This document shows positions 1,473 to 3,590 of a stretch of DNA of 64,000 nt, one piece after another. The first letter of the stretch is position 1. Every line of letters starts with the position of its first letter. The notes below the pieces were generated by a model. The model was given only the letters and a program-made list of their open reading frames with translations, was not told where the DNA came from and did not search any database. The translations under genes were made by a program, and so were the position numbers. Location: contig CP060501.1 in the NCBI GenBank assembly GCA_024760545.1, positions 1,649,501 through 1,713,500 of the forward strand, in the 5' to 3' direction. The stretch is from Nitrospira sp. Its GTDB lineage: Bacteria > Nitrospirota > Nitrospiria > Nitrospirales > Nitrospiraceae.

Positions 1473-1571
1473 GGCGATGTCAGTATAGCTCGACTATGGT
1501 GCGCGTCAAGTCTTCTCGCCGCCTCTGCGTAGCGGTTGCGATTTCATTTCTTCGCCCGTTATACTCGCAGC

Positions 1572-1931
1572 ATGGTCACCCTGACTCAAGAGGAAGTGGA
1601 ACGGCGCCTGAACACGGTCTCCTGTGCCATCTGCAAACAGTCCAGCTTTGCCATCGACGAACGATTCATGGGACCGGACGGTGACTGGCGTGCCATCTGC
1701 AAGAAGTGTTACTACACGTTTCCGGTCTATACAGACATGGAATTCTACCTGCGAACGCAACCCGATGTGCCTCTGTGGCTAAAGGAGATCTCCTGCAGAG
1801 CCTGCAGTCAGAAGGGAGTGAGTCTCGATTTCCGAGCGACGGTATCCGTACGAGAAGCGTACTATTTCGTCACATGCCGGAACTGCAAGCAGCAATTCCC
1901 GGAGAAATCGTCACTGGAGGCATTTGAATAA
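1572..1931 (+). CDS. Small protein with two tandem zinc ribbons
   Basis: I do not recognise a named family. The 119-aa protein contains two similar halves, each with two CxxC knuckles: Cys18/21 with Cys43/46, and Cys75/78 with Cys102/105. This predicts two zinc ribbons, probably from an internal duplication. I chose the ATG at 1572 (MVTLTQEEV) because the N-terminal extension in the same frame looks non-coding. No membrane segment or signal peptide is visible. A nucleic-acid or protein-binding role would be typical of such ribbons but is a guess. A mobile-type repeat begins 5 bp after the stop codon. Confidence 0.7.
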   Translation: MVTLTQEEVERRLNTVSCAICKQSSFAIDERFMGPDGDWRAICKKCYYTFPVYTDMEFYLRTQPDVPLWLKEISCRACSQKGVSLDFRATVSVREAYYFVTCRNCKQQFPEKSSLEAFE

Positions 1932-1935
1932 GCAT

Positions 1936-2057
1936 CAGGATGTTCAAAATGGCCGCCCAGCAAGGCTGCAGCGAGCAAAGACGCGAGGCGTACGCTTCGG
2001 TACGGTGAGCTTCCGAGCGATGCGAGAGTGAAGCTGGAGGACTTTTTGACCATCCTG
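1936..2057. repeat. 122-bp palindromic interspersed repeat (MITE or REP-like)
   Basis: The outer arms form an imperfect inverted repeat. The left end reads CAGGATGTTCAAAATGGCC and the reverse complement of the right end reads CAGGATGGTCAAAAAGTCC, 16 of 19 identical. CCAGC follows on the left and GCTGG mirrors it on the right. The centre contains a small hairpin, CGTAC-GCTTCG-GTACG. The element fills almost all the space between two small plus-strand genes and carries no reading frame of its own. It would fold into a long hairpin in RNA. From memory, elements of this look recur in Nitrospira genomes, but I saw only one copy here. Confidence 0.7.
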
Positions 2058-2074
2058 GGTGTATACTAAATCTT

Positions 2075-2257
2075 ATGACTGACCATCCAAAACAGCCTGA
2101 GCCCTCCCCGCCGGAAGAGAAGCCCAAGACGAGAAAAGAAATTCCTGTGTTCGCCATTCAGGATGATGATGCGGTAATGGCTGAAGAAATGGCCGACCTG
2201 TTCGAAGAAGATAAGGTGTCCCACCAACACGGCAGTTCAGAGCCGGAAGCGGACTAG
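2075..2257 (+). CDS. Small acidic hypothetical protein
   Basis: This 60-aa product (MTDHPKQPEPSPPEEKP at the N-terminus) is rich in Pro, Glu, Asp and Lys. It probably has a disordered head followed by a short acidic helix (AVMAEEMADLFEED). No domain is recognised. The start lies 17 bp after the end of the 122-bp repeat, so the repeat would sit in its 5' leader or promoter. It could also be co-transcribed with the zinc-ribbon gene upstream. Codon use and a clean start support a real gene, but no motif confirms it. Confidence 0.5.
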   Translation: MTDHPKQPEPSPPEEKPKTRKEIPVFAIQDDDAVMAEEMADLFEEDKVSHQHGSSEPEAD

Positions 2258-2364
2258 CCATCCAAGGACCGCGAGCCTGTCATCGGTTACCCCGTTCGTC
2301 CTGACTCCATGCATCCGACGGTGGGGATCATTCAATTCTCATCTCTGAACAATTCATGATGACG

Positions 2365-2388
2365 CAGACGAATGCGCGTATTCGTCTG
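2365..2388. terminator. Hairpin between convergent genes
   Basis: A perfect 9-bp stem (CAGACGAAT pairing with ATTCGTCTG) closes a 6-nt loop. It lies between the plus-strand small gene ending at 2257 and the minus-strand methyltransferase ending at 2397. The position suits a bidirectional terminator, but neither side has a good T-tract, so the role is uncertain. Confidence 0.45.
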
Positions 2389-2396
2389 TCACGTGG

Positions 2397-3590
2397 TCAT
2401 TCGGACTTGATTCCGACCGGCCTCACGATCTGTACAGCCGCATCCTGTTCGATCCGTCCCAGCGACGACACCCTCCCCTTTCGTTCTTTGTGAACAATCT
2501 TTTCGATCTGCACGATGGCGCCGCGATGCCACTGATCAAGCGCTTGGTTTTGAGGAGAGGCGAGACGATCCTGCCGCCCAACTTCCTGTCGACCTCGCTC
2601 ATTGCACAGCCACGCCCGCTTTTCACCCTTGAGTTGACGGAGTTCACTCACGATCCGAAAGACCTCCGGTCGCCGTTCGACGATTGTCTTGCCGTCTTTA
2701 CGCAGCAACACATACGAAAACTTCAGTGCGTCTTTGATGAAGCCTACGTGTTCGTCGATTTGCTGAATCATCATAGGCGGCTCCCACATCCGCTCTTCAT
2801 GGCACCAATCGTCAGGCTTCACGAGGGCCGGGCAATTCCGTTCATGGAGACAGGGGCTATAGATGGTGCAGCGGTTGTCATCGAGTAATCGGTCGCGCAC
2901 CCGATGCAGTGCTCGTGAGGTCTCTCGTAATGCCGGCTCCATAATCATCATGGTGCCGGAGGGTTTAAGGAGCGATAAGGCTTGTGTCACGAAGCGAGTT
3001 CGCGTTTCGACCGGATCTGTCGCATCTGCATACATCTCGTTCAAACAGTTCGCCAGGATGATGAGATCGAAAGGCCCTCTTGGTACTACTGCGTTCAACC
3101 ATACGCTTCGTTCCAAATCTCCTTCGTAGGTTTGAAGATTCGCTCCCCTCACCCCTGCGGTTTGGCTATATCGATCCCACAATCGTGCAGCCTCATGCAG
3201 TGCCGACGATGAGCGGTCTACGCTCACGACAGACAAGGTCGAAGCATCCCGGCGCCCATGCCACCAGTCGAGGACCGCGAGGCTCCCGGTTCCCGGCCCT
3301 GATCCTAAATCGAGCACTGAGAATGGTTCATGTTCCTTCTCGACCGGCATTTCATCGAGAAGCACTTGGATCTTGGCAAGGTTCACCGGCAGAAAATAAT
3401 TGAGATATGCGGAGGCAAAGGAGGGAACGTCAAGGTACGAGAAACCTAATGTGGGTCGCTTCTTCGTGAAGAGACTTGAGAGTTGAGCGACCTCATGCGC
3501 GAGACCCTTACGGGAGACACCTCTCTGCGTCGCGACCTCTTCGATGATCTGGAGCACAATTGGAGAGACCGTGGCGTTGAGGCCTTGCAT
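2397..3590 (-). CDS. Rsm22-like SAM-dependent methyltransferase
   Basis: The 397-aa protein carries the SAM-binding loop VLDLGSGPGT near residues 92-101 and a second methyltransferase motif, FDLIILANCLNEM, near 174-186. After it comes a cysteine cluster typical of the Rsm22 family: PCLHERNCP (Cys247, Cys253) followed by DWCHEE (Cys263). Rsm22 proteins act with the small ribosomal subunit, and the family is linked to mitochondrial ribosome assembly. The cysteines are thought to bind a metal or Fe-S centre. A role in rRNA methylation or ribosome assembly here is inference. The C-terminal 70 residues after the cysteine region are basic and less recognisable. It is divergent from the small gene starting at 3629. 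Confidence 0.7.
   Translation of the reverse strand: MQGLNATVSPIVLQIIEEVATQRGVSRKGLAHEVAQLSSLFTKKRPTLGFSYLDVPSFASAYLNYFLPVNLAKIQVLLDEMPVEKEHEPFSVLDLGSGPGTGSLAVLDWWHGRRDASTLSVVSVDRSSSALHEAARLWDRYSQTAGVRGANLQTYEGDLERSVWLNAVVPRGPFDLIILANCLNEMYADATDPVETRTRFVTQALSLLKPSGTMMIMEPALRETSRALHRVRDRLLDDNRCTIYSPCLHERNCPALVKPDDWCHEERMWEPPMMIQQIDEHVGFIKDALKFSYVLLRKDGKTIVERRPEVFRIVSELRQLKGEKRAWLCNERGRQEVGRQDRLASPQNQALDQWHRGAIVQIEKIVHKERKGRVSSLGRIEQDAAVQIVRPVGIKSE

Follow-up and report, generated by a model that had tools for sequence, protein, structure and literature searches.

We asked what the 122-bp palindrome between two small genes of a Nitrospira sp. is, how it may have come to lie there, and whether it belongs to the gene downstream. 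The window, that is, the whole stretch of 64,000 nucleotides analysed here, carries it at positions 1936-2057. The sequence-only reading, which had described arms matching over 16 of 19 bp and an intergenic gap nearly filled, was accurate: when the outermost 19 bases at one end are compared with the reverse-complemented other end, 16 of 19 positions agree, and the palindrome makes up 122 of the 143 bases from the stop codon of the gene at 1572-1931 to the start codon of the gene at 2075-2257. An inverted-repeat scan of this window region with a 9-base exact seed found none, because the mismatches are scattered along the arms. When folded as a single strand, the plus strand reached -51.1 kcal/mol, compared with -41.0 kcal/mol (sd 3.6) for shuffled sequences (z -2.82; 0 of 200 as low); the minus strand gave a z of -2.17, with 5 of 200 shuffles as low. 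The parts of the locus, including those assigned by the comparisons described below, are as follows.

1572-1931, plus strand: upstream gene, 119 aa, zinc-ribbon-like, with weak Pfam matches that are all below cut-off.
1932-1935, plus strand: GCAT, the four bases that separate the upstream stop codon from the element; in the genome G001, the orthologous copy has CTAA at this place.
1936-2057, plus strand: palindrome, probably the right part of a MITE in a left-truncated copy; model positions 1-124.
1936-1961, plus strand: inner (left) arm, with the conserved GTTCAAAA variant of the terminal-repeat sequence.
1962-1971, plus strand: left side of a large internal loop, AAGGCTGCAG in this copy and AAGGCCGCAG in the family consensus; highly conserved across the family although unpaired.
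1990-2003, plus strand: apical stem GTAC-GCTTCG-GTAC.
2023-2032, plus strand: right side of the same loop, CGAGAGTGAA in this copy and CGAGAACGAA in the family consensus.
2033-2057, plus strand: right arm, which is the right terminal inverted repeat of the element (here ending in CTTTTTGACCATCCTG).
2058-2067, plus strand: GGTGTATACT, a conserved promoter-like motif of the acidic gene, adjoining the element.
2075-2257, plus strand: downstream gene, 60 aa, acidic, with no Pfam match.

The decisive evidence against a chance palindrome is its family of copies. A blastn search with window positions 1931-2070 gave 25 matches in the window's own genome at E≤1, the query site included, and 21 at E≤3.1e-4. 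A covariance model, R1, was built from ten own-genome copies and gave 46 matches in that genome at E≤1; when opposite-strand matches of one place were merged, 39 distinct places remained at E≤1e-3. Among the R1 matches listed for this genome, no further copy lay in the 64-kb window. The idea of a repeat with copies elsewhere in the genome and in related Nitrospira was thus borne out, since 55 of the 59 genomes of the genus also had R1 matches (E≤1e-3). In the order, matches were found in 110 of 117 genomes and 22 of 24 genera (E≤1e-4), and in the phylum in 57 of 148 genomes and 22 of 71 genera (E≤1e-5), those beyond the order being weaker; the phylum-wide search reported 71 genomes without a match, as a number only. 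Copy numbers from the genus, order and phylum searches are lower bounds, as the best 60, 30 or 23 candidates per genome were scored. Among the 80 loci listed by a contig-wide scan, all titles but one named Nitrospira, Nitrospiraceae, Nitrospirae or Nitrospirota, the sole exception being Nitrosospira (isolate CMX). A blastn search of plasmids (PLSDB) with the window palindrome and one of phages (INPHARED) with the palindrome of locus L112 gave no match.

The main nitrite oxidisers, as well as the comammox bacteria, are found among Nitrospira, and most of their genomes have the element at dozens of sites. It can serve as a marker of recent movement and probably gives rise to spurious small ORFs in annotation, where frames through the repeat are likely to appear as small hypothetical proteins. 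We noticed a 63-aa open frame inside the repeat, on the minus strand at window positions 1862-2053.

In an alignment of left flanks, taken from 40 copies in relatives and from 17 in the own genome, the end sequence recurred some 76 bp leftward of the palindrome. From this comparison, the complete element consists, between two YTAR sites, of CAGGCTG(TT/CG)GAAAAAC, a spacer of about 58 bp and a 124-bp hairpin ending in CTTTTTCAACATCCTG, the outer right arm of which is the second terminal repeat. It is about 200 bp long and has no transposase gene; 94 full elements were aligned to give a consensus of 198 nt. The palindrome that had been taken for a 122-bp element is therefore real, but it is only the right-hand 124 bp of a unit of about 200 bp.

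The left repeat was then scored in 229 distinct palindromes, chosen from 329 hits for near-full model coverage and enough flank, with exact duplicates removed; this set keeps orthologous copies of related genomes and both named and unnamed records of one organism, so that its copies are not fully independent. By the test used (CAGGCTG(T/C)(T/G)GAAAA with at most 3 mismatches, 60-110 bp away), 105 of the 229 had a left repeat, 88 of them at 75-77 bp. An exact 4-bp target duplication of the YTAR type flanked 48 of these 105 copies, whereas 2000 random re-pairings of the flanking 4-mers yielded 18.4 on average and 29 at most, and a control with the bases adjoining the inner arm gave 0 of 105. The commonest duplications were CTAG (26), TTAG (9), CTAA (4), CTAT (3) and ATAG (3). 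Target duplications, which had been proposed as something to look for, are thus a property of the family but not of the window copy, which has GCAT on the left and GGTG on the right. In the genome G119, three copies (L129, L212 and L214) have spacers 97-100% and hairpins 99-100% identical, lie in unrelated flanks, and bear the perfect duplications CTAG, TTAG and CTAG, respectively; the unit of about 200 bp thus moves whole and has done so recently there. Two other modes of movement were considered and dropped: an IS200-like one-sided target without duplication, because the left end turned out to lie about 76 bp farther away, and a TA-duplicating IS630 type, because whole 4-mers are duplicated.

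The remaining 124 of the 229 palindromes had no left repeat by this test. Equal 4-mers at the palindrome itself were found in 2 of the 124, and many still have YTAR at the right end. These copies may be truncated or may represent a second mobile form. A decayed left repeat may survive in some, as 30 of 124 had a best score that reached the threshold, with 13 of the 30 at 75-78 bp, compared with 5 of 124 shuffled sequences. There was no sign of longer elements: a left-repeat-like site lay within 3 kb upstream in 6 of 124, compared with 10 of 124 in the downstream control. At one locus (L148), CTAA flanks the palindrome alone on both sides.

Candidate partners of the MITE were found among transposases of the PF05598 type, which occur in 32 of the 78 genomes of the bacterial family. 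An IS of 1284-1378 bp with paired YTAR-CAG... ends was present in 11 of the 30 PF05598 loci read. Its bounds in these 11 loci are YTAR plus CAGGCTGCGGAAAAA, CAGGCTGTTGACAAA or close variants, and the end variants CAGGCTGTTG and CAGGCTGCGG occur at MITE left ends too. G001, the congener that shares the window's insertion, has such an IS (L344), one end of which is CTAG followed by CAGGCTGTTGAAAAA. These IS5-family elements of Nitrospiraceae (NF033581/PF05598) share with the MITE the terminal 15-17 bp and the YTAR target, but they differ in being 1.2-1.4 kb long, encoding a transposase and having no hairpin; the resemblance is confined to the ends, the interior is unlike, and the IS transposase loci gave no full palindrome match. 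The protein at locus L155 scored 285 bits against NF033581 (IS5 family, NCBIfam; cut-off 140), and that at L172 stayed under both cut-offs, with 231.5 of 270 for IS1182 and 134.8 of 140 for IS5. Duplication of a YTAR target by IS5 is reported in PMC10359306. As a separate observation, locus L162 of G121 (Nitrospiraceae) goes with 14 PF05598 matches of identical score and two palindrome-model matches; this, the one G121 locus read, is without YTAR-CAG ends.

A transposase with the same ends, as the sequence-only reading had envisaged, is therefore found in related genomes (the 11 of 30 loci above) but not in the window's own. There, the one PF05598 gene has no matching ends, a protein search for the transposase, which had no positive control, found none, and a search with NF033581 returned weak pieces only. 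G119, the genome with the youngest copies, gave no PF05598 and no NF033581 match, and NF033581 matches were also absent from G058, G085, G148, G022 and G017. Loss of the partner is unsurprising for older copies; in G119 the partner may be lost, unassembled or of another type.

Taken together, these data suggest that the palindrome forms the right-hand portion of a MITE about 200 bp long, most likely mobilised in trans by an IS5-type transposase, and that the window copy is old and immobile; we put the probability of this reading, made from sequence comparison, at about 0.87. The MITE-type element proposed earlier is upheld by the many copies, the target duplications and the IS with the same ends in related genomes, and the copies are both dispersed and polymorphic in insertion, as those of a MITE are. 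The transposase of the IS of about 1.2-1.4 kb, which has the same ends and target, would bind both ends of the MITE, excise or copy it, and insert it at a YTAR site; the comparison of copies shows that the 4-bp target, mostly CTAG, is duplicated upon insertion. YTAR sites are frequent at TAG and TAA stop codons, where an insertion would do little harm, and this would explain the frequent right ends beside stop codons. The hairpin fold may be needed in cis for transposition, or it may act as RNA or as a 3'-end structure.

The window copy has neither left repeat nor spacer. Because these were lost and no matching IS was found in the genome, the copy is most likely old and immobile. We examined the orthologous site at 30 loci of 76 matching genomes, and 27 were resolved. 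The full palindrome was present at 2 of the 27, those of the window's genome (G000) and G001, a remnant of about 42 bp was present at 5 (G010, G012, G028, G038 and G041), and 20 had no element. G058, which belongs to the same species as G000, has an empty site: its flanks are 98-99% identical, and in place of the element there are 24 nt similar to other empty sites. The loop and junction common to G000 and G001 make the insertion look older than the species, and either G058 regained an empty allele by recombination or G000 received a filled one. When 30 loci of G058, a part of its copies, were compared, 29 of 35 own places had a counterpart there, and the window copy had none; the other 5 may have theirs among the G058 copies beyond these 30.

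A role of the hairpin in the leader of the acidic gene, suggested earlier, is unlikely. At 26 of the 27 resolved orthologous sites, the ATG of this gene is preceded within a few bases by GTGTATA(C/G)T, and the motif at 2058-2067 is probably the promoter of a nearly leaderless gene. With the motif between the element and the ATG, transcription of the acidic gene probably starts downstream of the element; if TATACT is the -10 box, the mRNA would be nearly leaderless and the hairpin would lie upstream of it. A promoter scan found no sigma-70-type site at the window region.

We next consider the hairpin itself, which is far better conserved than the rest of the element. Over the 94 full elements, conservation was 0.93 in the palindrome and 0.54 in the left 76 bp, the repeat included. 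The spacer of about 58 bp is hypervariable and nearly constant in length: across 287 pairs whose hairpins were identical at 95% or more and whose flanks were unrelated, mean spacer identity was 0.56, compared with 0.48 for shuffled sequences. Our guess is that the constant length reflects a required distance between the binding sites at either end. We considered a small hairpin with covariation in the left spacer and rejected it (mean fold z -0.15 on the plus and -0.05 on the minus strand; 66 nonredundant spacers). With a MITE hairpin conserved to this degree, selection on small bacterial repeats becomes a testable question.

Among 35 copies of less than 86% mutual identity, 92.4% of cells pair, compared with 34-40% when partners were slid, and 30 of 35 pairs showed changes on both sides, a number as high as which was reached in 0 of 500 shuffles. 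An alignment of 106 copies to R1, biased toward the R1 structure, showed changes on both sides in 33 of 41 pairs. Conservation is higher in the large internal loop (AAGGCCGCA on one side, GAGAACGAAGC on the other; 0.91) than in the paired columns (0.83), and three G-U pairs are retained in 57, 77 and 95 of the 106 copies. Outside those three columns, wobble pairs outnumbered A-C mismatches 98 to 27 in the 106 copies, and on the less biased union of the structures of both strands they did so 53 to 32 in the 35 copies. The plus strand folded better in 33 of the 35, with a mean difference of 7.8 kcal/mol. The hairpin seems to be held by selection on a single-stranded fold, and a conserved covarying hairpin with conserved unpaired loops hints at an RNA-like role.

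It is possible, though we hold the idea only tentatively, that the MITE is the vehicle of a structured, strand-specific RNA of 124 nt (regulatory, 3'-end or transposase-recruiting) and not passive DNA, spread over Nitrospirota by borrowed IS5-type ends. In such an RNA the unpaired loops would be conserved, accessory modules would be optional and placed at two fixed points, and its spacer to the left end would be constrained in length and unconstrained in sequence. No Rfam family matched at gathering score, either at the element (window 1500-2500) or in L112, L119, L127 and L129. In crude ORF calls at 190 copies, the right-hand gene was on the minus strand, toward the element, in 115, on the plus strand in 67 and uncalled in 8; the minus strand would thus be co-transcribed more often, which speaks against a simple read-through RNA.

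A less likely alternative is that the hairpin serves the host after gene ends, as a (bidirectional) terminator or an mRNA-stabilising 3' element that transposition merely spread. Its better conservation, compared with the left part, fits this, as does the order of A-run, GC stem and T-run in which the arms read in both directions. When copies with identical right flanks were removed, 141 of 212 distinct right ends adjoined a stop trinucleotide, and 88 of these 141 closed a frame of at least 80 codons, compared with 10 and 20 in the other frames. However, stop codons are predicted by the choice of YTAR targets alone, which may explain most of the excess, and in the 89 copies with both ends known, 36 were flush on the right and 21 on the left, at most a mild bias to the hairpin end. 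Many orthologous sites do without the element, and a terminator scan of the window region was negative, with a maximum loop of 8 that would pass over this hairpin.

It is more doubtful still that the arms are complementary only through hairpin-templated (quasi-palindrome) correction of DNA, with no selection on the fold. Templated correction would likewise yield many paired changes, but it should erase wobble and unpaired positions, whereas the three G-U pairs were kept in most copies and conservation is higher in the internal loop than in the paired positions. A REP/BIME element mobilised by a RAYT (Y1-HUH) transposase, the other type that had been proposed, is very improbable, palindromic, intergenic and multicopy as the element is, because the own genome gave no Y1_Tnp (PF01797) match in a search positive in 5 of 14 control genomes, and because the copies have IS5-type terminal repeats and 4-bp target duplications, which REP elements are not known to have. 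The hairpin is also at least three times as long as a usual REP, given as 20-40 bp in PMC3733652.

A MITE mobilised by an IS5-type transposase thus remains the preferred reading, and MITEPsy1 of Pseudomonas syringae (PMC3189936) is its nearest described relative in kind. MITEPsy1 belongs to the IS5 group, is related to ISPsy2, and its transposition was trapped experimentally. Like the Nitrospira element, it is short and gene-less with terminal repeats, which contain TGAAAAAG, and its 4-nt duplication, CTAG or YTAA, is alike in kind; it is 100 nt long, whereas the Nitrospira element is about 200 bp long, has at one end a hairpin of 124 bp that covaries, contains a hypervariable spacer and is spread order-wide. 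The BOX, RUP and SPRITE elements of Streptococcus pneumoniae are also small interspersed repeats with predicted structures and modular variants; according to PMC3049150, two of them have terminal repeats similar to an IS, and there is some enrichment near the 3' ends of convergent genes. They differ in hosts, ends and IS families (RUP: IS630-Spn1), and the likeness meant here is one of kind. QMITE1 and QMITE2 of Coxiella burnetii (PMC5896051) are MITEs found through small RNAs originating from them, QMITE2 lying mainly in 3' untranslated regions and between genes. These differ in size and duplications, and their expression was measured, whereas the Nitrospira element is known from its sequence. 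The family was undescribed in the literature searched for Nitrospira palindromic, intergenic or interspersed repeats and MITEs, which lay mostly outside subscription journals and included accessible parts of PMC5767232 and PMC12306157. The element is a MITE with unusual anatomy.

The copies also vary among themselves. Within the hairpin, variation is greatest in the apical loop, where longer copies have their extra modules; the apex is unlike even between copies of G000 (L030) and the same-species G058 (L094). In 19 of 284 distinct hits we saw a module rich in C, which consists of CACCCNCCCN(N)CCC and a small hairpin and has three to four G-tracts on the opposite strand; it lies at the apex in L032, L035, L044 and L049, and in the left arm just before AAGGCCGCAG in L007, L011, L012 and L016. 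A long apex variant, GAGGAGGTAC..CCGCACTT(C/T)GTGT plus further sequence, was present in two own-genome copies (L018 and L021) and in L339 of G152.
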